Both the position numbers and the translations under genes were made by a program. From the NCBI GenBank assembly GCA_902618025.1, contig CACMYY010000015.1, forward strand, positions 1 to 33,645: 33,645 bases of DNA. The letters are read 5' to 3'. The notes under the pieces were generated by a model that had not been told where the DNA came from, made no database searches, and worked only from the letters and a program-made list of their open reading frames with translations. The stretch's first letter is position 1; every line of letters begins with the position of its first letter. Origin of the DNA: an uncultured SAR116 cluster alpha proteobacterium (GTDB taxonomy: Bacteria; Pseudomonadota; Alphaproteobacteria; Puniceispirillales; Marisalimonadaceae). Of this stretch, positions 11,968-33,540 are shown in pieces.

Positions 11968-12642
11968 ATGAAGTTAATTAAAATTAAACTATACATATAT
12001 CAATTAATCTATTCACAAATAAAGCATACAAAGCATATGACTCAAAATATGAGAAGTCCAGGAAATGGTTTTTTAGGAAATATTGCTAAAGAACTGATGA
12101 TCGTTTTTAACGAATTTGTTTATAATGACTCAATTAAAAAACTCAATGTTAAAAAAAATGATAATGTTATAGAAATTGGATCTGGTAATGGACAGGGAAT
12201 TAAAAAATTACTAAACCTCACTTCCAAAAATATTATTTCGATAGAAGTCAGCGATACATTTCGTAATAAATTAATTCAAAAATTTAAAAATCAAAATGTT
12301 ACAATCTTGTCTAATGATGCAAAAAATTTATCTGATATTGTAAAAGATAATTCTTTCGATAAATTACTTGCAGTTAATGTGGTTTATTTTTTACACCCTA
12401 TAATTGACTATGCTAGAGAATTCTTCAGAATATTAAAAATAAATGGATTAGGTATTTTAGTTTGCAAGTTTGAGGGTATTAAAAACTTTGATGATAAAGT
12501 TGCTCCAAATAAGAATTTGGAAGATATAGTTAATGCTTTTGAGAAAGCAGGGTTTGGAGTTAAAACAGAATTCATTAAATCCAATAATACACAAAAAGAA
12601 TATCATGCAATTTATTTAAGAAAGAGTAAGAATGAACCATAA
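11968..12642 (+). CDS. Class I SAM-dependent methyltransferase
   Basis: A 224-residue Rossmann-fold methyltransferase. Motif I is VIEIGSGNGQG (67-77), the acidic residue ending strand 2 is E93 (SIEVSD), and later come NVVYFLHPIIDYAREFFRILKINGLGIL and a Lys-rich C terminus. The N-terminal 25 residues are basic and unconserved-looking, and the ATG abuts the previous stop without a clear ribosome-binding site; an internal ATG around 12037 (MTQNMRS) is a possible start. It overlaps the next gene by 11 bp. Acceptor substrate unknown. Confidence 0.8.
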   Translation: MKLIKIKLYIYQLIYSQIKHTKHMTQNMRSPGNGFLGNIAKELMIVFNEFVYNDSIKKLNVKKNDNVIEIGSGNGQGIKKLLNLTSKNIISIEVSDTFRNKLIQKFKNQNVTILSNDAKNLSDIVKDNSFDKLLAVNVVYFLHPIIDYAREFFRILKINGLGILVCKFEGIKNFDDKVAPNKNLEDIVNAFEKAGFGVKTEFIKSNNTQKEYHAIYLRKSKNEP

Positions 12643-13492
12643 TTCAAATATACAACCAAGAAGGAGTTTTATATTTACTCCTGGTCTGAAGCCTGACATG
12701 TATCCAAAAGCTCTTAAATCCGGCACAGATATGGTATGTGTTGAACTAGAAGATGGTATTGCCCCACATGATAAAGAAACAGCAAGAAACTTAGCTCTAA
12801 AATTATTTCAAGAAAAGCAAGAAAATGATGGAGTTGAAAGAATTTTAAGAATTAATTGTTTAAGAGAAAAGTTTGGAATAGAGGATGTCCAGGCTATTTT
12901 GTCAACTAAAAATCCTCCACCAGCTCTAATGATCCCAAAAGTAAAAACATCTCAAGAAGTTAAACTTTTAGATGATTTACTCAGTGAAAAAGGACATAAC
13001 TGTAGACTTCATATTATAATTGAAACTAATGAAGGATTAGAAAATGCCTTTGACATCGCAAATTGTTCACAAAGAATAGATGCACTTTTTTTTGGAGGTG
13101 TAGATATGTCTGCAGAGTTAAGATGTGAAAATAAATGGGAACCCCTTTTATATGCAAGATCCAGAATAGTACATGCAGCAGCCTCCGCTGGTATTGATGC
13201 AATAGATGTTCCTTATCTTGATCTAGATAATCTAGATGGTATGAAAAAGGAAGCAATTAAAGCAAAAGAGCTTGGTTTTAGTGGGAAAGGATCAATACAT
13301 CCAAAACAAATTTCTGTATTAAATAATGTTTTCACTCCCTCTATTGAAGTTATAGAACGAGCAAAAAAAATCACATCAACATTTGAAGAAGCAAATACTG
13401 GGCTGGTTGTAATTGATGGCAAATTAATTGAAAAACCTGTGTTAAGAGAAATGTATAGAATTTTATCTATAGCGAACAAATTAAATAATTAA
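12632..13492 (+). CDS. HpcH/HpaI (CitE-like) CoA-ester lyase
   Basis: A TIM-barrel lyase of the citrate lyase beta/malyl-CoA lyase type, 286 residues. It has RRSFIFTPG (10-18), VCVELEDG (35-42), LRIN (72-75), metal ligands E131 (IIETNEG) and D158 (GGVDMSAEL), and the C-terminal GSIHPKQI (220-227). Such enzymes split or form beta-hydroxyacyl-CoA thioesters (malyl-, citramalyl- or beta-methylmalyl-CoA) using Mg2+. It is the last gene of the + strand operon from 9247, consistent with organic-acid use. Its stop overlaps a convergent permease gene by 12 bp. The exact CoA ester is unknown. Confidence 0.87.
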   Translation: MNHNSNIQPRRSFIFTPGLKPDMYPKALKSGTDMVCVELEDGIAPHDKETARNLALKLFQEKQENDGVERILRINCLREKFGIEDVQAILSTKNPPPALMIPKVKTSQEVKLLDDLLSEKGHNCRLHIIIETNEGLENAFDIANCSQRIDALFFGGVDMSAELRCENKWEPLLYARSRIVHAAASAGIDAIDVPYLDLDNLDGMKKEAIKAKELGFSGKGSIHPKQISVLNNVFTPSIEVIERAKKITSTFEEANTGLVVIDGKLIEKPVLREMYRILSIANKLNN

Positions 13493-24087: not shown

Positions 24088-24744
24088 TCACTGATATATA
24101 TTTCCGTCCGTAACACTTTGTAGATATTCAATTGTTATATCTTCATTTAACTGAATTACTTTAAAACCGTCATCTGTTATATCTAGTACTGCATAATCTG
24201 AATAAATTCTAGAGACAACTCCTGCTCCTGTAAGTGGTAACGTACACTTTTGAACCAGTTTAGGCTTTCCATCTTTAGTCAAATGCTGTGTCATTACAAA
24301 CACGTTTTTAGCTCCTGCAACTAAATCCATAGCACCGCCCACCGCTGGTATTCCTTTACCAGTTGACCAATTTGCAAGATCTCCTGTAACAGAAATTTCC
24401 ATTGCTCCAAGTACACAGTAATCAATATGCCCTCCTCTTATCATAGAAAAGCTGTCCGCATGATGACAAAAACTACCTCCTGGAAGAATAGTAACTGGTT
24501 TTTTACCCGCATTTATTAGGTCTAAATCAATTTCGTTCTCATTTGGTGATGGTCCCATTCCCAACAAACCATTTTCTGAATGATAAATTATTTCTCTATC
24601 TTCTTTAATGTATTGAGATACTAATTCTGGCATACCAATACCAAGATTTACATATGAGGAATGAGGCAAATCATTTGCTATTTTCGATGCTATAGTATTT
24701 CTATCCCATCCCTTAATTAAATCTTTTGTATTTATGTTTATCAT
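24088..24744 (-). CDS. 3-Oxoacid CoA-transferase, subunit B
   Basis: The 218-residue beta subunit of a class I CoA-transferase (SCOT/AtoA/PcaJ group). It carries the catalytic glutamate E57 in HSENGLLGMGP, plus VNLGIGMPELVS, GGSFCHHADSFSMIRGGHID and GGAMDLVAGAKNV. The enzyme moves CoA, usually from succinyl-CoA, to a free carboxylic acid or 3-keto acid. It overlaps subunit A by 4 bp (ATGA). Beside acyl-CoA dehydrogenases it may activate the pathway acid. Confidence 0.9.
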   Translation of the reverse strand: MININTKDLIKGWDRNTIASKIANDLPHSSYVNLGIGMPELVSQYIKEDREIIYHSENGLLGMGPSPNENEIDLDLINAGKKPVTILPGGSFCHHADSFSMIRGGHIDYCVLGAMEISVTGDLANWSTGKGIPAVGGAMDLVAGAKNVFVMTQHLTKDGKPKLVQKCTLPLTGAGVVSRIYSDYAVLDITDDGFKVIQLNEDITIEYLQSVTDGNIYQ

Positions 24745-25454
24745 GGATATGTCATCCCTTCTTCAATAGCATTGGTCTCAATAATTGGATTTTCTATATT
24801 AATAAGACTTTGAACAAAAATACCTGGTGTAATGACATGTTCAGGATTTATTTCATTTGGTTCTAAAATATTTTTTACTTGAACTAATGATTTATCTGCA
24901 GCCATACACATAATTGGGTTAAAGTTCCTAGCAGTTTTATTGTATGTGAGGTTGCCATATCTATCAGATGTTTCTGCTTTAACAAAAGCAAAATCTGCTT
25001 TTAAAGCTTCTTCAAGAATATATTTCTTTCCATTAAAAATTTTTTCTTCTTTACCTTCGGCTAGAGGAGTACCAACTCCAGTTGCAGTATAAAATCCAGG
25101 TATACCGGAACCAGCTGCCCTAATTCTTTCCGCCAATGTTCCTTGTGGAACAACTTCCAATTCGATTTCACATTTATTATACAATTCTTGGAAAGTAACT
25201 CCTTTGGCAGATCTTGCAAAAGAACAAATAACTTTTTTAACTTGTCTTTGACCAATTAACGCACCAAGACCCACTCTTCCATTTCCTGAGTTGTTAGCAA
25301 TAATTGTTAAATCCTTCGTACCTTTATCAATTAACCCGTGCAATAATTCAATTGGGCTTCCCGCTTCACCAAAACCGCCGACCATTATTGTTGCTCCATC
25401 AAATACATCTGATAAAATTTCGGTCATATCTTTCTTTATTTTGTTGATTTGCAT
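24741..25454 (-). CDS. 3-Oxoacid CoA-transferase, subunit A
   Basis: The 237-residue alpha subunit, with the family signature VGGFGEAGSPIELL (25-38) and IANNSGNGRVGLGALI. GAGSGIPGFYTATGVG-type glycine-rich motifs (VRAAGSGIPGFYT region, about 111-128) and KAETSDRYGNLTYNKTARNFNP follow, all as in SCOT/PcaI/AtoD. GAAAGG precedes the ATG. The gene diverges from an acyl-CoA dehydrogenase pair across 88 bp with a palindrome, suggesting joint regulation. Specificity (succinate, acetate or 3-oxoadipate type) cannot be read from sequence. Confidence 0.9.
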   Translation of the reverse strand: MQINKIKKDMTEILSDVFDGATIMVGGFGEAGSPIELLHGLIDKGTKDLTIIANNSGNGRVGLGALIGQRQVKKVICSFARSAKGVTFQELYNKCEIELEVVPQGTLAERIRAAGSGIPGFYTATGVGTPLAEGKEEKIFNGKKYILEEALKADFAFVKAETSDRYGNLTYNKTARNFNPIMCMAADKSLVQVKNILEPNEINPEHVITPGIFVQSLINIENPIIETNAIEEGMTYP

Positions 25455-25542: not shown

Positions 25543-26739
25543 ATGAATTTTGAATATTCTGAAAAAGAAGAAAAATTTCGAATAGAAGTAAGAAATTGGC
25601 TTAAAGAGACGCTTCCAAAGTACTTGTCTGAAAAAGTAAGAAAATACCAGAGACTTACGAAAGAAGATTATGAATTATTTATGAATAATTTAAGTAAAAA
25701 GGGTTGGATTGCTTGGCATTGGCCTGAAGAATATGGTGGAACTGGGTGGAATGCAATTGAAAAGCACATATTTGAAGAAGAAATTGTAAAGGCATCAGCA
25801 CCAAGAATTGTCCCGTTTGGAGTAAATATGTTAGGTCCAGTCTTGATTGAGTTTGGATCAGAAGAACAAAAAAATTATTATCTTCCAAGAATTTTAAATA
25901 ATGAGGATTGGTGGGCTCAAGGATATTCTGAACCTGGAGCGGGCTCAGATCTTGCAAGTCTTAAAACAACAGCAGTAGATAAAGGTGACCATTATTTAGT
26001 TAATGGACAGAAAACTTGGACAACTTTAGGTCATCATGCTGATAAGATTTTTTGTCTTGTTAAAACTGATCTTAATGTTAAACCTCAATTAGGAATTTCT
26101 TTTCTACTTATAGATATGGACTCTCCAGGTGTTGAAGTAAAACCGATAATAACACTCGATGGTGAACATGAAGTTAATGAGGTTTGGTTCACTGATGTTA
26201 AAGTTCCTAAAAAAAATCTGGTTGGAAAAGAAAATGAAGGCTGGACATACGCAAAATATTTACTAACTTTTGAAAGAACCGGAATAGCTGGTGTTCCCAA
26301 TTCAAAATCGGCTTTAAATCACTTAAAAATGGTTTCAAAAAAATCAATGAAAAATGGAAAACCATTAATTGAAGATCCTATGTTTTCTTCAGAAGTTGCT
26401 GAATTAGAAATAGATCTATTAGCCATGGAAATTTTTAACCTTAGAACAGTCAGCGCAGCAGCTGAAGGTAAAGCCCCAGGAATGGAAAGTTCTTTACTTA
26501 AAATTAAAGGAACACTTGTAAGACAGAAAACAACTGAATTACTTAGAAAGGCTCTTGGACCGCAAGCTTTACCATATTTACCCGAACAATTTGATGAAGG
26601 ATGGAATGAAATGCCAATTGGACCAGAATATGCTGGCCCTATTGCAAAGCAGTATTTTAATATGCGAAAAATTTCTATTTATGGTGGATCTAATGAAATC
26701 CAAAAAAATATAGTCGCAAAAGCATCATTTGGTTTATAG
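25543..26739 (+). CDS. Acyl-CoA dehydrogenase, first of a pair
   Basis: A 398-residue FAD-dependent acyl-CoA dehydrogenase. The N-terminal helical domain is followed by WAQGYSEPGAGSDLASLKT (about 126-144), the flavin/substrate loop, and VNGQKTWTTLGHHAD, with a C-terminal YGGSNEIQKNIVA (380-392). The position just before GGSNE, where many family members carry the catalytic Glu, is Tyr, then Gly; the base must come from elsewhere or from a partner. The next ACAD gene starts 9 bp downstream, so the two may form a heteromer like the paired FadE enzymes of steroid side-chain degradation. Confidence 0.88.
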   Translation: MNFEYSEKEEKFRIEVRNWLKETLPKYLSEKVRKYQRLTKEDYELFMNNLSKKGWIAWHWPEEYGGTGWNAIEKHIFEEEIVKASAPRIVPFGVNMLGPVLIEFGSEEQKNYYLPRILNNEDWWAQGYSEPGAGSDLASLKTTAVDKGDHYLVNGQKTWTTLGHHADKIFCLVKTDLNVKPQLGISFLLIDMDSPGVEVKPIITLDGEHEVNEVWFTDVKVPKKNLVGKENEGWTYAKYLLTFERTGIAGVPNSKSALNHLKMVSKKSMKNGKPLIEDPMFSSEVAELEIDLLAMEIFNLRTVSAAAEGKAPGMESSLLKIKGTLVRQKTTELLRKALGPQALPYLPEQFDEGWNEMPIGPEYAGPIAKQYFNMRKISIYGGSNEIQKNIVAKASFGL

Positions 26740-26748
26740 GAAATAAGA

Positions 26749-27867
26749 ATGGATTTTTCATTATCTGAAGAAAGAAAAATGCTTCAGGAAACCATAGCTC
26801 GTTTTTTTGAAAATAGTTATAAAGATATTAAAAAAAGAAGTGAATACCTAGAAATGAATGATGGCTTTTCTAGAGAATTTTGGAAAGAAAGTTCAAATTT
26901 AGGTGTAATCAGTGGCTTGATTTCACCAAGCTTTGGAGGTCTAGGAGGTTCAGGTGAGGATATTAGTATAATATTTGAACTAATTGGCAAATCATTATGC
27001 ATTGAACCATTTTTATCTTCTGGCTTATTATCAAGTACAATTTTATCTTCTTTAAAAAATCCCAAAATTGAATTAATAAATCAAATCATTGAGGGAGAAT
27101 TATTAGTATCATTTGCACATATGGAAATGAATAATAGATATGAGGACCATTTTGTAGAGAGCAAAGCCTTTTTAGAAAATGAAAATTGGAAACTAAATGG
27201 AAGTAAATCTTTTATAATAAATGGAGATTCTGCAGATAAAGTTATAATTTCTGCTAGAATAGAAGGGGAAATTAACGACAAAAATGGTATTGGTTTATTT
27301 TTAGTTGATAATAATAAAATTAATAATAGATCCTATAATACAATAGACGGTTATAGAGCTGCTGAGTTAAACTTTGACAATATAAATGCTGAATTATTAT
27401 GTGAAGATGCTCTAGCTCTTGAGTGTATTATCAAAGCAAATTCTGCAGGTGCACTTGCACTTTCGGCAGAAGCTGTTGGTATAATGCAAGTATGCTTTGA
27501 TTTAACACTCGATTATTTGAAAACTAGAAAACAATTCGGAAAGTCTATTGGGTCTTTTCAAAGTATCCAACACAGAATGGTAGATATGATGCTGGAAATT
27601 GAACAAGTAAGGTCTGCAGTAATGTTAGCATCTTCTACATTTGAGACTAATTCATCAATACGAGATAAGAATATATCTGCTGCAAAAAACTTAGTAGGAA
27701 GAGTTGGTAAACTTGTAGCTGAGGAGGCAATACAACTACATGGTGGAATAGCAATGACTTGGGAGTATTCTGTTGCACATTATGCAAAGAGACTCATTAT
27801 GATTGATCATTTAATGGGCGATGCAGATTATCATAGAGACAGATTTAAGTTATTAAGTTTAAATTAG
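26749..27867 (+). CDS. Acyl-CoA dehydrogenase, second of a pair
   Basis: A 372-residue acyl-CoA dehydrogenase-fold protein, more divergent than its partner. FAHMEMNNRYEDH stands where the usual A-x-T-E-P flavin loop would be, so that motif is degenerate. TRKQFGKSIGSFQSIQHRMVDM (FAD-contact helix) and EEAIQLHGGIAMTWEY are well kept, but the chain stops after HYAKRLIMIDHLMGDADYHRDR, without the terminal GTSEI-type segment. Short C termini and degenerate loops are characteristic of one subunit in heterotetrameric ACADs. It ends overlapping by 4 bp with a convergent thioesterase-like gene. Confidence 0.87.
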   Translation: MDFSLSEERKMLQETIARFFENSYKDIKKRSEYLEMNDGFSREFWKESSNLGVISGLISPSFGGLGGSGEDISIIFELIGKSLCIEPFLSSGLLSSTILSSLKNPKIELINQIIEGELLVSFAHMEMNNRYEDHFVESKAFLENENWKLNGSKSFIINGDSADKVIISARIEGEINDKNGIGLFLVDNNKINNRSYNTIDGYRAAELNFDNINAELLCEDALALECIIKANSAGALALSAEAVGIMQVCFDLTLDYLKTRKQFGKSIGSFQSIQHRMVDMMLEIEQVRSAVMLASSTFETNSSIRDKNISAAKNLVGRVGKLVAEEAIQLHGGIAMTWEYSVAHYAKRLIMIDHLMGDADYHRDRFKLLSLN

Positions 27868-29120
27868 TTATCTATTAACAATTTAGAAGCTTTAACTCTA
27901 AAATATTCTGGGACAACAATTGATTTTCTTTTTTTTAAGTCAAATAAAACTGCAACAATCTCAATATCCATTATTACATCTCCTGTACTATCATCCACCA
28001 TATGGTGAATAAATTTTAATGACTTGTTTCCTATCTTTGTAAAGTTGGTATACATCGTAACTGCCATTCCAAGTGAAGCATCTTTAAAATATCTTGCAGA
28101 ATAATCTAATGCAGCAGATCCAATATCATATTCATTTCTCCAATTAAAGTCTGCTCCACAATATGTAAATAAGTGAGTGGCTGCATCAGAAATACAACCT
28201 ATTTTAAATTGACTTGATCCCATTGCCTCATGATCTAAATCCCAAGTGTTAACTGCACTTTTACAGCTAACAAATGCATTTCTGAAATAATTTTGAGGTG
28301 GTCTATTATCCGTTAGTGGCCTTAAATTGAAAAATTCTAGTTCATTTAAAAATGTATAACAAGTTGAAGAAAATAAATCTGAAATTATTTTTTTTATTTG
28401 TTTATTTACATCTAATGAAATAGACGTCTCAAAGTAAGCTGAAACATTTTCATGATCTAAGCTATAAACTTTGCTCAATAATAAAATTTTATTATCTTCA
28501 ATTGATTTAACTTTAAAAACTATCTCTAACACAGAATTTAAGTGAACTTCGCGACTAAAAATACATCTTTCATTTAAAATTTTGTATTTAATCTTTTCTA
28601 TAGAGTAGCTATTAATTTTATTAAAAAGGCATTTGATTGCTTCTGCATGTTTTCCAAAATAATATTGGACATTCATGTGAGACATTTGATCACAATCTTT
28701 AATTCTAACCAAATCCTTAAAAGCAGAGTAGATACCACTTTGACTTTTTATATCAATTTTTAATGGTTTATCTATATTTTTACAGATTAGAATTAAAGTT
28801 TGCGTTGATAAAATTTTATCATCTTTACTATGTGAAGGATTTAATAAAAATAATTTGTGAGTAACTTTTATTTTATCTTTTGCCTTTAAAGATAAATTTG
28901 TACTGACGTATACTGTCATATATTGAGACACTGATACAGGATAAACTTTAGTTTCACAATATTTTTCAGCATCAATTTTTAAATTACTTAAAACAACCTT
29001 AGTAAAATGAGTACTATCTTCAAAAATTTTGTTACAACAAGACTTTCTTAAAATTCTTAATTCATCTTTATCAGCAGGTCTTATAAGCCCCCTGTACGTT
29101 TCTAAATTTTGAAAATACAT
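27864..29120 (-). CDS. Thioesterase-like protein with probably three hot-dog domains
   Basis: A 418-residue protein. A hot-dog domain centred on 136-245 carries the 4HBT-like motif D144-Q-M-S-H148-M-N150-V-Q-Y-Y. Another, about 275-405, has NTWDLDHEAMGSSQ (291-304), DYSARYFKDASLGM and VDDSTGDVIMDIEIVAVLFDLKKRKS, a typical thioesterase ending. Residues 1-130 have a similar strand pattern (KVYPVSVSQYMTVYVSTNLS), suggesting a third, degenerate copy. D-x-M-x-H-M-N-V motifs also occur in the thioesterase domain fused to carnitine dehydrogenases. It probably hydrolyses an acyl-CoA made by the neighbouring ACADs. Confidence 0.72.
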   Translation of the reverse strand: MYFQNLETYRGLIRPADKDELRILRKSCCNKIFEDSTHFTKVVLSNLKIDAEKYCETKVYPVSVSQYMTVYVSTNLSLKAKDKIKVTHKLFLLNPSHSKDDKILSTQTLILICKNIDKPLKIDIKSQSGIYSAFKDLVRIKDCDQMSHMNVQYYFGKHAEAIKCLFNKINSYSIEKIKYKILNERCIFSREVHLNSVLEIVFKVKSIEDNKILLLSKVYSLDHENVSAYFETSISLDVNKQIKKIISDLFSSTCYTFLNELEFFNLRPLTDNRPPQNYFRNAFVSCKSAVNTWDLDHEAMGSSQFKIGCISDAATHLFTYCGADFNWRNEYDIGSAALDYSARYFKDASLGMAVTMYTNFTKIGNKSLKFIHHMVDDSTGDVIMDIEIVAVLFDLKKRKSIVVPEYFRVKASKLLIDN

Positions 29121-29146
29121 AATATTATTTTGAGTTAGGAAATTTC

Positions 29147-30349
29147 CTAATTTTTATCTCTCAACTCCAACTTTGCAACACTCATCCTATGTACTTCATC
29201 AGGCCCGTCTGCAAGTCTTAAGGTCCTTGCATGACCATACGCATATGATAATGGAAAATCTTGGGAAACCCCTCCTCCACCGTGAACTTGTATTGCTCTA
29301 TCAATAATTTTAGTTGCCATATTAGGGGCTACAACTTTAATCATTGATATTTCTTTTCTTGCAATTTTATTTCCAACTGTGTCCATCATATGAGCAGTTT
29401 TTAATACCAATAATCTAGCTTGTTCAATCTCAGCTCTACTTTCAGCAATATCATGCATTATAACACCCTGTTCTGAAACAGGTTTACCAAAAGCAACTCT
29501 TGATTTTGCTCTGTTTATCATTAGCTCTAAAGCTCTTTCCGCTTGACCAATTAAACGCATACAGTGATGAATTCTGCCTGGCCCCAATCTTCCTTGTGCA
29601 ATTTCAAATCCTCTACCTTCTCCTAAAAGAATGTTACTAGCAGGAACTTTTACATCTTTAAAATCAACTTCAGCATGACCATGAGGAGCATGATCATATC
29701 CAAAAACTGTTAAATGCCTTAAAACTTTAACTCCTGGTGTATCAATTGGAACTAAAATCATTGATTGCTGTTTATACTTTTCAGCCTTAGGTTCAGTTTT
29801 ACCCATAAAGATCATAATTTTGCATCTGGGATCCAACGCACCAGAAGTCCACCATTTTCTTGCATTAATTATGTATTCATTACCTTTTCTTTCAATACTA
29901 GCTTGAATATTAGATGCGTCTGATGACGCCACAGCAGGTTCAGTCATGGCAAATGCAGAGCGTATTTCACCATTTAGAAGTGGTTTTAACCATTTATCTT
30001 GCTGATCTTTTGTCCCATATCTCACTAATACTTCCATATTCCCAGTATCCGGAGCAGAACAGTTAAAAACTTCAGCACCAATTGGAGAACGGCCCATAAT
30101 TTCACATAAAGGGGCATATTCTACATTTGTTAATCCTGCTCCAAAATCACTTTCAGGAAGAAATAAATTCCATAATCCTTGTGCTTTGGCTTTTGACTTC
30201 AGATCCTCCATGATCTTAGGTACACACCATCTACCACCTTTTTCAACTTCTTCTTTATAAACAGTTTCATTTTTATAAACATGTTCGTTCATAAAATTTG
30301 TTAATTTTTCTTGTAGATCTTTTACTTTATTTGAATATTCAAAATTCAT
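29147..30349 (-). CDS. Acyl-CoA dehydrogenase, ACAD10/11-like
   Basis: A 400-residue ACAD starting at ATG 30349, with AGAGG five bases upstream; a GTG at 30355 is less likely. It shows [17 protein letters not shown] (flavin loop), [49 protein letters not shown] and, at the catalytic position, [17 protein letters not shown], with Asp where most ACADs have Glu-Gly. This ending matches the ACAD10/ACAD11 branch. It starts 8 bp after an APH-fold kinase gene, the same pairing that is fused in animal ACAD10/11 and adjacent in LvaA/LvaC. It likely acts on 4-phospho-oxy acyl-CoA. Confidence 0.88.
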
Positions 30350-30357
30350 TTTCACCT

Positions 30358-31419
30358 CTAATTTAAGTTAAAAACACCATTAGCTCTATTAATTAAAGCT
30401 TCAATTCTATGACCAAAATTTGCAAATCTTTTATCTTGAGTTTGACCTTTTAGAAATCTTACATAAATTTGTTGAATAATTACAGCTAATTTAAACGCTC
30501 CAAATGCATAATACCAGTCAATGTCTTTAGTACTAAAACCTGTCTTTAATGCATAATGATCAATGATTTCAATTTTTTTAGGATATAAAATGTTTTTAAT
30601 TGGCATTGAAGTAATTAGATTAGCTTCTGTGTCATCATCTTCGTCTATCCAATAATTTAAGAAATGACCTAGATCCATAAGAGGATCTCCCCTCGTACAC
30701 ATGTCCCAATCAAAAACTGCTGTAGGTAAGAGAGGATTATCATTGTCCCACATAATATTGTCCAATTTGAAATCATTATGTAAAATAGTTGCACCTTGTG
30801 GCTCAGGTATATTAGATCTTAAATATTTAAGTAGCTTATTAAATCTATTTTCTAATTTTTTTTTATCAGATGCTTTTTTCCATCTCTCTTCCCAACCATT
30901 GAGTTGCCTTAAAACAAAACCATCAGGTCTTCCAAAGTTATCTAAACCTACCTTTGATGGATCTAATGTATGTAATTGGGCTAACACATCGATCATTTTA
31001 AAACTTAATGATCTTATCTTTTCTCTAGATCCATCTAGTTCTGGTCGCATTTCTTTTCTAATTACAATGCCTTTTCTTCTTTCAATTAAATGAAATTTGC
31101 TTCCAATAATATTATCATCATTACATAAATGAAAACTTTTGGGTGCTAAAGGAAATAATTTATTCAAAGAATATTGAACCAAATGTTCTCTAGCCATGTC
31201 GTGAGAAGAAGGAGCAACAGGACCGAGTGGCGGTCTTCTTAGTACAAACTCTTGATCATCAAAACTAATCAAATATGTCAAGTTTGCATGACCACCGCTG
31301 AATTGAAGTATTTTTATTTCATCAATATTAATTTTCAATAACATAGTTAAATATTGTTTTAGCTTATCCAAATCAATTTTTTCATCTTGTCTAAGATCAA
31401 TTAATTCGTGGTCAACCAT
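30358..31419 (-). CDS. APH-fold phosphotransferase, putative hydroxyacyl-CoA kinase (LvaA/ACAD10-like)
   Basis: A 353-residue aminoglycoside phosphotransferase-fold protein. It has [11 protein letters not shown] (41-51) and [22 protein letters not shown] (ATP-binding lysine replaced by the family's RRPP block), the catalytic loop H214-N-D216-x-x-x-x-N221 and the metal-binding [19 protein letters not shown] starting at D237. This VLRRPP...SSHDM type is the ACAD10/11 and LvaA kind, which phosphorylates the 4-hydroxyl of hydroxyacyl-CoA. It is not an antibiotic resistance gene. It is followed after 8 bp by the ACAD11-like gene. Confidence 0.85.
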
Positions 31420-31544
31420 TTTTTCTATCCAAAGAACCCAATATTAGAAAATAATAATGATAAATATTTAAAATTTTAATATGTTTAATGATAATATAAT
31501 TAAAACATTTTAGTAATTAAAATTTCAAGCTTTTGAGGAAAATT

Positions 31545-32327
31545 ATGAATAATTTATTTGATATTAGTGGGAAAATTGCTCTTGTAACTGGTGGTTCAAG
31601 AGGAATTGGAGCGATGATTGCCGAGGGTTTTGTTAAGAATGGTGTCAAAACATATATTACATCTAGAAAATCAGAACAATGTAATCATAAAGCGAAGGAA
31701 CTCTCCAAGTTTGGAGAATGTATCTCTGTACCTACTGATTTAACTGATATGAAAGAGTTGGATGAATTAGTGAGGCATATTGAAGAAAATGAAAAAAAGC
31801 TTAATATTTTAATTAATAATGCAGGAGCTGCATGGGGAGCACCATTTGATACTTTTCCTGAAAATGGATGGGATAAAGTAATGGACACAAATGTAAAAGC
31901 TGTTTTTTTCTTAATTCAAAAATTAATAAAAATATTGGAAAGTTCTGGAGATAATTCTGATCCGTCTAGAATTATTAATATTGGGTCTATAGATGGAGTA
32001 GGCATACCTAGAGCTGAAACGTATTCGTATCCTGCATCAAAAGCAGCAATCCATCAATTAACTAGAGTTTTAGCAAATAGATTGGCTCATAGGAATATTA
32101 ATGTTAATGCTATTGCTCCAGGACCATTTCAAAGTAATATGATGGCTCATTCCCTAAAAGAATATGGAGAACAAATCAAAAAATCAGTTCCACGTGGAAG
32201 AATTGGCATTCCTGAAGACATGGCTGGGACGTCTATATTTTTATCTTCTAAAGCAAGTGCATATATAACTGGCTCGATAATACCGGTAGACGGAGGTTCT
32301 CTAATAGCTAGAAGACATATGGAATAA
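31545..32327 (+). CDS. RhlG-like short-chain dehydrogenase
   Basis: A classical SDR of 260 residues. ATG at 31545 is chosen because GAGG lies at 31535-31538; an upstream TTG at 31533 would overlap that site. Motifs: TGGSRGIG (15-22), NNAG (91-94), S148 and YPASK (Y162, K166), ending PVDGGSLIARR. FDTFPENGWDKVMDTNVKAVFFL resembles RhlG, a 3-oxoacyl-type reductase. It diverges from the kinase/ACAD11 pair over a 125-bp gap, and could play the role of the LvaD reductase that makes a 4-hydroxyacyl-CoA. The gap itself (31420-31544) is AT-rich and holds no other gene or clear hairpin. Confidence 0.85.
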   Translation: MNNLFDISGKIALVTGGSRGIGAMIAEGFVKNGVKTYITSRKSEQCNHKAKELSKFGECISVPTDLTDMKELDELVRHIEENEKKLNILINNAGAAWGAPFDTFPENGWDKVMDTNVKAVFFLIQKLIKILESSGDNSDPSRIINIGSIDGVGIPRAETYSYPASKAAIHQLTRVLANRLAHRNINVNAIAPGPFQSNMMAHSLKEYGEQIKKSVPRGRIGIPEDMAGTSIFLSSKASAYITGSIIPVDGGSLIARRHME

Positions 32328-32356
32328 ATGAAATAAGCATAAAACTATCGTGTCTT

Positions 32357-32479
32357 TTAAGCATTTATAATTAATTGTACTTCTATTGAAAAATACTTTC
32401 TATATGGATAACCATATATATACATACTTACTTCTGGCAATTGTGCAAAATTAGAAAGTAAACTTAACAACTCACTCAT
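32357..32479 (-). CDS. Small ORF of 40 residues, unknown
   Basis: A leftward frame beginning MSELLSLLSNFAQLPEVSMY and ending EVQLIINA, starting 1 bp after the DUF1826 stop (TAAAATG). It stays open for 40 codons in DNA where stops are frequent, and contains an unusual tyrosine-rich centre (YIYGYPYRKY). It has no signal peptide, and it may be a small protein of the operon or a remnant of a longer lost gene. Function unknown. Confidence 0.4.
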   Translation of the reverse strand: MSELLSLLSNFAQLPEVSMYIYGYPYRKYFSIEVQLIINA

Positions 32480-32480
32480 T

Positions 32481-33113
32481 TTAATGATACTTAAGAACAT
32501 TATCCCAGAATGAAGGATGGTCCAATCTTAAAAGAATTGAAGGACCATTTAATGCATCATCAGGAGTACGATGAAGTAAGCCTTTTTCACCACCTCGGAA
32601 AACTGCAACATCCCAGGGTTTCATAAATTGAAGTTTTTTAGGATCTTTAACAATCATTTCATTTGGTTCACCATTGGCAAATGCACGTCGATCAGCAACC
32701 ATATCAGGCAGCCATTCTGTACCCTTTCCAGCATAGGTTATAAGCATTCGAAGAGGAACATTATCTATGTGATATCGTCGACAACCTCGCTCTGAACTCA
32801 ACCAAAAACTCACAGAATCACTTTTTTGTATATCACAAAATAGCTCAACAGCATTTTCCATGTCTTCTATCCATTTTTCAAAAAAAGGTGTATTTTGGAG
32901 AGGCTCAGAAATTTCTTCTTCTAAAATTTCCTTAATATTTGAGTTCACATTTTCTTTTCTAACCTTGCTAGCAATTCCAAGTGGTCTCTGCATCAATTTT
33001 TGAAAAAATTCATCTATTCTTCGCGGAATTTTTCTCTCAACAATTCCTAGCTGATAATCACAAGTTGCAAAATCTTTTATATCTTCAAAGCTATTTGTCC
33101 GAAAAACACTCAT
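32481..33113 (-). CDS. DUF1826 family protein, possible Fe(II)/2OG-type cupin
   Basis: A 210-residue protein matching DUF1826. The C-terminal half contains SVSFWLSSERGCRRYHIDNV with H115-x-D117, later GLLHRTPD with H181 and LLRLDHP with R196. That H-x-D...H...R spacing resembles the metal and 2-oxoglutarate sites of double-stranded beta-helix oxygenases, an inference since the family has no established activity. As I recall, DUF1826 genes often neighbour zinc-responsive COG0523 GTPases. It is the second gene of a leftward operon behind a DsrE-family gene and a Zur-like site. Confidence 0.8.
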   Translation of the reverse strand: MSVFRTNSFEDIKDFATCDYQLGIVERKIPRRIDEFFQKLMQRPLGIASKVRKENVNSNIKEILEEEISEPLQNTPFFEKWIEDMENAVELFCDIQKSDSVSFWLSSERGCRRYHIDNVPLRMLITYAGKGTEWLPDMVADRRAFANGEPNEMIVKDPKKLQFMKPWDVAVFRGGEKGLLHRTPDDALNGPSILLRLDHPSFWDNVLKYH

Positions 33114-33150
33114 TTAATTATTCGTTTAAAATATTTTTGATCTTTGGAGT

Positions 33151-33528
33151 TCAAAGAGTTATAACATGGTCTGGAGGATTTGATCCTAATGCTTGATATA
33201 GCTGTGGAAAACAACCTACCTGAACACCATCAACCATACCTTTAGGTTTTACGTCTCCACTACCACATTGTTCAAATGTACCTTCTGCAAAGCCTCTTCT
33301 GACCGCACATTGGTCACAAGCCATTAACAACATATTTTTTTCTTTAGCTATTTTTGCTAAGCGCTCACCAAATGCATTTCCTTTTTGAAGACATAAAATA
33401 TTATCATCGAAGAAGAACATCCCTATTACATCAACCATGTGGTTGCCTTGCTCTAATTGAGGTAAGATCATTGAATTTAACTGAAAGGTACTTGACTGAT
33501 CAGTTTTAAATACATAAGCAATTTTCAT
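33151..33528 (-). CDS. DsrE/TusD-like sulfur-relay family protein
   Basis: A 125-residue protein starting at ATG 33528, preceded by GGAG six bases upstream; a TTG at 33540 would swallow that site. It has the DsrE/DsrF-type alpha/beta fold: KIAYVFKTDQSS, VDVIGMFFFDDNILCL, ERLAKIAKEKNMLLMACDQCA. Cysteines C71 and C74 (CDQC), C88 and C106 (GVQVGCF) are candidates for persulfide carriage or metal binding. Such proteins move sulfur in relay systems or are cytosolic unknowns. It leads the operon with DUF1826, under a probable repressor-controlled promoter. Confidence 0.83.
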   Translation of the reverse strand: MKIAYVFKTDQSSTFQLNSMILPQLEQGNHMVDVIGMFFFDDNILCLQKGNAFGERLAKIAKEKNMLLMACDQCAVRRGFAEGTFEQCGSGDVKPKGMVDGVQVGCFPQLYQALGSNPPDHVITL

Positions 33529-33540
33529 AAAATTCTCCAA

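Follow-up and report, generated by a model that had tools for sequence, protein, structure and literature searches.

We analyzed a kinase and an acyl-CoA dehydrogenase (ACAD) that are encoded side by side in an uncultured SAR116 cluster alphaproteobacterium (GTDB family Marisalimonadaceae; GenBank assembly GCA_902618025.1), on a stretch of 33,645 nucleotides of contig CACMYY010000015.1 referred to here as the window. Judging from their sequences, the two proteins probably form a split bacterial counterpart of ACAD10/11, in which a 4-hydroxyacyl-CoA would be phosphorylated and the phosphate then eliminated to yield a 2-enoyl-CoA. A sequence-only reading of the window had proposed such a pair together with a divergent short-chain dehydrogenase/reductase (SDR), and all three genes are indeed present as open frames with matching Pfam domains, including the ACAD N, M, and C domains above their cut-offs in the ACAD and adh_short_C2 (172 bits) in the SDR. 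The source contig, number 15, is part of a 1.55-Mb assembly that is 75% complete.

According to two studies (PMC11342911, PMC12440821), ACAD11 phosphorylates the 4-hydroxyl group in an ATP-dependent manner and then performs an FAD-assisted elimination to the 2-enoyl-CoA, with no net oxidation; in animals, 4-hydroxy fatty acids are channeled into beta-oxidation in this way. Animal ACAD11 and ACAD10 share with the window pair the kinase and the phosphate-eliminating type of ACAD, the Arg/His/Arg/Asp cluster of the latter, and the catalytic residues of the former. However, animal ACAD11 is one fused protein, while the window harbors two genes. These are separated by 8 nucleotides, as the sequence-only reading had noted, given an ACAD start at ATG 30349. 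This start is favored because all 40 orthologues delimited by script in the GTDB family are 400 amino acids long.

The ACAD belongs to the ACAD11 type

Compared with solved chains, the ACAD scored highest against ACAD11 (8v3u, 469 bits, E = 9e-140), followed by 8v3v (467 bits), 2wbi (461 bits), and the bacterial "putative acyl-CoA dehydrogenase" 4hr3 (450 bits), while the best ordinary ACAD reached only 152 bits. With ACAD11 it shares 56% identity across 393 aligned positions, and the alignment revealed a stretch of 13 residues at the phosphate site that is identical in both. In ACAD11, the 4-phosphate is held by R626, H634, and R637 and D753 acts as the base, and changing these residues ablated or impaired ACAD activity, as stated in PMC12440821, whose numbering runs one ahead of the letters of chain 8v3u. 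Equivalents of all four are present in the window ACAD (Arg254, His262, Arg265, and Asp381). The last of these lies in the sequence ADGPDEVH near the end of the protein, which aligns with YEGTSDVQ of 4u83 and, as read from the sequence beforehand, carries an aspartate where an ordinary ACAD has its catalytic glutamate.

Within its own genome, this ACAD stands apart: among 12 ACAD hits it scored 914 bits and the runner-up 131 bits, and it alone carries the Arg/His/Arg motif. In a tree of 86 rows, it fell within an ACAD11-type clade of 83 rows (support 100/99). The motif R..H.MR was found in all 83 of these rows but in none of the 3 other ACADs, and a DGxxxxH ending with the aspartate was likewise present in 83/83, the narrower form DGP-D/E-E/D-V/T-H occurring in 64. 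The tree included 5 of the 40 family orthologues and 15 of the 37 ACAD11-type loci found around related kinases, with lower limits of 350 bits for hits and 340 amino acids for fragments; its outgroup branches are long and the order within the ACAD11-type clade is poorly resolved. The score gap, the active-site residues, and the tree together support the assignment well, and by these measures the ACAD is clearly of the ACAD10/11-LvaC type (LvaC being the ACAD of the levulinate pathway, see below), closer to ACAD10/11 than to other ACADs.

The kinase resembles the ACAD11 kinase domain but lies in a neighboring clade

The aminoglycoside phosphotransferase (APH)-fold kinase matched 9o56 best among solved chains (264 bits, E = 2e-77), an entry that carries only the name "aminoglycoside phosphotransferase" and whose code appears in none of the papers searched, followed by ACAD11 (128 bits), 3dxp (124 bits), and 9fsg (40 bits). 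It is 30% identical to the ACAD11 kinase domain and harbors the loop HNDFKLDN, with Asp216, Asn221, and Arg171 (the arginine of RQ..GW) conserved. R86, a residue named in PMC12440821, is not matched by number in the ACAD11 chain; in the window kinase, Arg77 precedes the alphaC glutamate. An AlphaFold 2 (AF2) model of the kinase, with a predicted local distance difference test score (pLDDT) of 90.6, gave 3dxp as the top fold (Z 31.2, root mean square deviation 2.9 A over 319 residues) and the 25-hydroxysteroid kinase 9ft5/9fsg as the second best (Z 25.8). Neither ACAD11 (8v3u/8v3v) nor 9o56 was among the 50 fold matches listed, which is no argument against kinship, since both match by sequence. 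The NCBIfam scan returned no family for the kinase at 1e-5, and six peptide patterns found no relatives of it in viral contigs.

A kinase tree of 84 rows, comprising 5 of the 41 family orthologues besides the window kinase and leaving out stretches under 250 amino acids, resolved three clades. Clade A consists of the 29 kinases that adjoin a DUF6285 gene and is split from clades B and C and from the kinases of loci L050 and L165, which lie outside all three, at 100/100. Clade B (17 rows, 100/98) contains the window kinase and its orthologues, 9o56, the kinases of Deinococcus, Cytobacillus, Cupriavidus oxalaticus, and Ideonella, that of locus L126, and five from proteobacterial ACAD11 loci. Clade C (36 rows, 100/100) includes 3dxp and the ACAD11 kinase itself; of the 32 kinases taken from ACAD11 loci it holds 26, and six family paralogues and two kinases from Bosea complete it. 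By its sequence, the kinase is thus a relative of the ACAD11 kinase, outside its clade. Its role as the kinase half of an ACAD10/11-like pair is reasonably supported by homology, catalytic residues, and the strict pairing described below.

Divergent sets of the same gene types were observed as well. Loci L121 to L125 of family genomes, which show no linkage to the locus of the window type, hold a second set made of a clade C kinase, a divergent SDR, and a divergent ACAD. The ACADs of L121, L122, L123, and L125 are 33 to 34% identical to the window ACAD and keep RLGLARLTHCMR and VDGASEVH, so that this second set is likely a phosphate-eliminating ACAD system too; only the kinase and the SDR are visible in L124, and only a kinase in L127. 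A third type (L126, genome G017) encodes an adjoining kinase and ACAD, 39% and 44% like those of the window, with an SDR beside them. Finally, Pseudomonas loci L328 to L332 combine a kinase, SDRs, and an ACAD that is 35 to 36% identical to that of the window and carries RLGGGRxHHAMR and ADGPTEVH.

The pair is part of a block conserved in the family

To determine how far the arrangement is conserved, we analyzed 58 genomes of the family, including that of the window; many of them are incomplete. A kinase hit at E <= 1e-3 was found in 53/58 and an orthologue (at least 59% identity) in 42/58, the other hits being 28 to 39% identical. The ACAD was found at E <= 1e-100 in 41/58, always as the next gene downstream from the orthologous kinase; the 42nd genome with that kinase, G017, has a contig that ends inside the ACAD. 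Five of the six family genomes that are at least 90% complete encode the ACAD.

Synteny was counted in relatives only, at the places that the gene order of the window predicts, and loci that were too short were left out. The kinase-ACAD pair was kept in 40/40 loci, the divergent SDR in 39/39, a gene for a protein with predicted hot-dog domains in 40/40, PimD-like and PimC-like ACADs in 38/38 each, and subunits A and B of a CoA-transferase in 37/37 and 36/36. Beyond the SDR, the next two genes of the window were at the expected place in no relative (DUF1826, 0/37; DsrE, 0/36), although a more remote DsrE gene is present in one locus. On this flank, then, the SDR marks the limit of the conserved block. 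Toward the opposite flank the block runs on, where the stretches reach, to a lactate-dehydrogenase-like gene in many loci. Since the relatives share ancestry, synteny by itself is no proof of joint function, but the sharp edge of the block helps.

Open frames of 761 to 785 amino acids found for the kinase in three genomes (G009, G031, and G044; loci L104, L100, and L076) raised the possibility of a natural kinase-ACAD fusion. This was rejected: the kinase ends 18 nucleotides before the ACAD start in all three, and translation of G044 (L019) showed a stop codon separating kinase and ACAD, both in one frame.

Similar pairs occur outside the family

We then asked where else ACAD11-type genes lie beside a kinase. 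Such a gene was found in 85 of 299 genomes of the phylum, that of the window included, and from the 84 others one locus per genus was drawn, giving 51 genera; L209 and L210, from this survey too, were read in addition and do not count among the 51. A kinase was encoded within 6 kb of the ACAD11-type gene in 30/51 genera, on the same strand in 26 of the 30.

A second survey looked around kinases of the clade B type in named genomes (Pseudomonas, Marinobacter, Acinetobacter, Psychrobacter, Rhodococcus, Nocardia, and others) and covered the 80 highest-scoring of 585 loci; the search alignment was headed by the L198 kinase rather than by the window kinase. An SDR was present in 75/80 of these loci, an ACAD11-type gene in 37/80, and DUF6285, sought with a profile made from 20 of 30 of its loci, in 0/80; as each profile made for this work drew on 2 to 20 sequences, absences established with them are soft. 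Like the window, Marinobacter, Acinetobacter, Deinococcus actinosclerus, Cytobacillus spongiae, Ideonella dechloratans, and Bosea sp. NBC_00550 group a kinase, an ACAD11-type gene (over 350 bits), and an SDR, and a PaaI or thioesterase gene is present in the Deinococcus, Cytobacillus, and Bosea clusters. In Cupriavidus oxalaticus and Haloferax, by contrast, the ACAD next to the kinase is a more remote relative (264 and 328 bits).

A gene of the histidine phosphatase family was seen in 53/80 of the loci around clade-B-type kinases (L211 to L290) and in 9/53 loci of the phylum survey, whereas the window lacks it and 0/40 family loci have it. Such a phosphatase, which according to PMC6692424 also adjoins the P. 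citronellolis homologue of LvaA, might hydrolyze misplaced phosphate.

Comparison with the levulinate pathway

The gene types of the window recall the lva operon of Pseudomonas putida, which by description (PMC6692424 and PMC12440821) likewise encodes a kinase, an ACAD with the aspartate, and an SDR. In P. putida, lvaA, lvaB, and lvaC are required for the use of levulinate, LvaB being a 12-kDa partner of the kinase LvaA; a kinase 59% like LvaA is also encoded in P. citronellolis, where the region analyzed yielded no lvaB (PMC6692424). Unlike the lva operon with its small LvaB gene, the window has no gene between kinase and ACAD. The sequence-only reading had seen no LvaB-like partner, and indeed nothing fits there, the gap being 8 nucleotides in the window and -4 to 24 in 40 relatives. 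In addition, whereas lva includes the acyl-CoA synthetase LvaE, the conserved block has a CoA-transferase and no synthetase, and among the eight genes scanned at 25543-33540 none is LvaB-, LvaE-, LvaF/G-, or LvaR-like.

Genome-wide, the only LvaB candidate that we sought was DUF6285, a presumed counterpart of LvaB that no name or sequence links to it. DUF6285 was found in 0/58 family genomes. Across the class, there were 37 matches in 35/142 genomes, and in 29 of the 30 loci at hand (L128 to L157) an APH-type kinase lies beside the gene, so that the two form a constant two-gene unit. These 29 kinases make up a single clade that excludes the window kinase. The term DUF6285 was not found in the papers searched. 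A search for a reference lva cluster returned none that could be called as such in 20 Pseudomonas and Stutzerimonas genomes, nor among the kinases of at least 249 genomes of a Pseudomonas genus, nor among second ACAD11-type genes sought in 56 of those genomes, nor in 12 stretches.

Neighboring genes

The coordinates of the pair and its neighbors are listed in Table 1. The hot-dog gene is the third in the run after kinase and ACAD; the SDR diverges from the kinase, with 125 nucleotides between them. Neither the hot-dog gene nor the CoA-transferase and the PimC/D-like ACADs had been mentioned in the sequence-only reading.

Table 1. Features of the conserved block in the window
Feature	Position	Strand	Basis or remark
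APH-fold kinase, 353 amino acids	30358-31419	-	PF01636, 143 bits
Kinase catalytic residues	Asp216, 30772-30774; Asn221, 30757-30759	-	Residue alignment
Kinase Arg171, equivalent to ACAD11 R176	30907-30909	-	Residue alignment
ACAD11/LvaC-type acyl-CoA dehydrogenase	29147-30349	-	400 amino acids from ATG; 402 amino acids if GTG 30355
ACAD Arg254, His262, Arg265	29555-29590	-	Match ACAD11 R626, H634, R637
ACAD Asp381	29207-29209	-	Matches ACAD11 D753
SDR, 260 amino acids, RhlG-like; candidate 4-oxoacyl-CoA reductase	31545-32327	+	PF13561, 172 bits
Predicted triple hot-dog protein, 418 amino acids; probably thioesterase-like	27864-29120	-	4HBT_2 and AF2 model
PimC-like (large subunit) acyl-CoA dehydrogenase	25543-26739	+	TIGR03204, 454 bits, below cut-off of 624
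PimD-like (small subunit) acyl-CoA dehydrogenase	26749-27867	+	TIGR03203, 277 bits, below cut-off of 653
3-Oxoacid CoA-transferase subunit A	24741-25454	-	TIGR02429, 329 bits, over cut-off of 128.5
3-Oxoacid CoA-transferase subunit B	24088-24744	-	TIGR02428, 290 bits, over cut-off of 243.55

As the sequence-only reading had suggested, the SDR is RhlG-like, RhlG (2b4q) being its closest solved structure (237 bits). The further proposal that it is the equivalent of LvaD and the source of 4-hydroxyacyl-CoA is plausible, a guess from gene order that agrees with its presence in 39/39 family and 75/80 related-kinase loci; both are raw counts, and SDRs are common generally. On the other hand, its two closest plasmid homologues (53 to 56% identical) have no such kinase beside them. 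In NCBIfam, the SDR reached the cut-off of none among the best 25 of 226 matches, and the ACAD that of none among the 19 matches listed.

Pfam 4HBT_2 was detected at the C-terminal end of the hot-dog protein, in 22/22 members. The best of its AF2 models had a pLDDT of 83.8 (58 to 69 for the other four), and from our reading of the secondary structure the protein is predicted to consist of three tandem hot-dog repeats. The best fold matches of this model were acyl-acyl carrier protein thioesterases and ACOT7, which have two hot-dog domains. The protein is probably thioesterase-like, and a thioesterase role in the pathway would be a guess from gene order. The same holds for the suggestion that the CoA-transferase might load CoA in place of LvaE; both of its subunits pass the 3-oxoacid CoA-transferase cut-offs, while the two ACADs similar to PimC and PimD stay below theirs.

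The DUF1826 protein and the DsrE-family protein beyond the block lie at 32481-33540, the latter over the NCBIfam "ELSE" cut-off (199 versus 152 bits). Elsewhere in the window, a CitE/RipC-like lyase is encoded at 12632-13492, under the RipC cut-off (259 versus 375 bits). Promoter and terminator scans were no richer than shuffled sequences (26 versus 26.7 and 1 versus 1.9).

Alternative explanations

Several findings weigh against reading the pair as an ACAD10/11 counterpart. The ACAD was placed inside the ACAD11-type clade of its tree; the kinase, although homologous to the ACAD11 kinase domain and conserved in its catalytic residues and pairing, does not group with that domain (clade C) but lies in the neighboring clade B, of which we know of no assayed member. 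A kinase of similar fold, 9fsg/9ft5, acts on a free steroid according to the entry titles. In the phylum survey, 21/51 genera have an ACAD11-type gene without a kinase within 6 kb, and an SDR lies within 6 kb in only 18/30 loci with a kinase, versus 6/21 without (p = 0.045). Judged by a small profile, a hot-dog gene is rare outside the family (4/53 and 1/80 loci), which makes its link family specific. We considered four other explanations. That an ordinary ACAD and an unrelated antibiotic-type phosphotransferase are neighbors by chance would fit the generic annotation names of the homologues, but it is contradicted by the ACAD11 score gap, the active-site residues, and the strict pairing, and we consider it extremely improbable; with E values of 9e-140 (ACAD11) and 2e-77 (kinase and 9o56) and the pair kept in 40/40 loci, neither the matches nor the pairing is due to chance. 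The kinase could also act on a free hydroxy compound, its link to the ACAD being merely operonic, as the 25-hydroxysteroid kinase, which is APH-like too and phosphorylates a lipid hydroxyl, ranks second among the folds. However, that enzyme, whose substrate is a free steroid, matches the window kinase at 40 bits, against 124 to 264 for 3dxp, ACAD11, and 9o56, the fold of 3dxp is closer (Z 31.2 versus 25.8), and a kinase accompanies an ACAD11-type gene within 6 kb in 30/51 genera, so that we deem this very unlikely.

A true lva pathway, with the SDR as LvaD, the kinase as LvaA, the ACAD as LvaC, a CoA-transferase in place of LvaE, and growth on levulinate, agrees with the gene types, and the P. 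citronellolis region analyzed in PMC6692424 likewise has no lvaB. It appears unlikely, given that LvaB-, LvaE-, LvaF/G-, and LvaR-like genes are missing from the eight genes at 25543-33540, that the CoA-transferase belongs to the 3-oxoacid type in both subunits, and that the SDR is only a candidate orthologue of LvaD. More serious is the possibility that the chemistry is the same but the substrate is not a straight 4-hydroxy fatty acid but a branched, cyclic, or dicarboxylic hydroxyacyl-CoA, supplied for example by the PimC/D-like ACADs. The kinase has its own clade, the PimC/PimD-like ACADs and the CoA-transferase are part of the conserved block, and several family genomes carry another, divergent kinase-SDR-ACAD set whose active-site residues are unchanged, so that substrates may differ. 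Against this possibility stands the phosphate site of the ACAD, which is identical in sequence to that of ACAD11. We see this as a real prospect, if somewhat short of an even chance.

A possible route and its implications

If the pair is the counterpart of ACAD10/11, a 4-oxoacyl-CoA, perhaps formed by the CoA-transferase instead of LvaE, might be reduced by the SDR to the 4-hydroxyacyl-CoA. The kinase would then transfer a phosphate from ATP to its hydroxyl group, and in the ACAD the aspartate would act as the base and FAD as a transient electron carrier while Arg/His/Arg holds the phosphate; elimination would give the 2-enoyl-CoA, which would enter beta-oxidation, and the hot-dog protein might serve as a thioesterase.

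The block looks like a bacterial instance of the already known ACAD10/11 enzyme pair; no description of it was found among the titles and abstracts listed in literature searches on bacterial kinase-ACAD pairs. Only tentatively, we propose in addition that this small-genome proteobacterial family has a route for 4-oxo and 4-hydroxy acids that is free of LvaB and of a synthetase and consists of the CoA-transferase, the SDR, the clade B kinase, the ACAD11-type ACAD, and a three-domain hot-dog step, and that ACADs which eliminate phosphate make up a wider superfamily, reaching as low as about 33% identity while Arg/His/Arg/Asp is kept, that removes hydroxyl groups from several kinds of acyl-CoA.

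The ACAD10/11 chemistry was described in animal work from 2024 and 2025; our analysis would extend it to a conserved bacterial catabolic block, and it offers a stand-alone kinase and a stand-alone ACAD for study alongside the fused animal protein. With three kinase clades, one of them tied to a small DUF6285 partner, the need for an LvaB-like partner becomes testable. If the divergent second kinase-ACAD sets share this chemistry, bacteria would have a general strategy of removing hydroxyl groups via phosphate.

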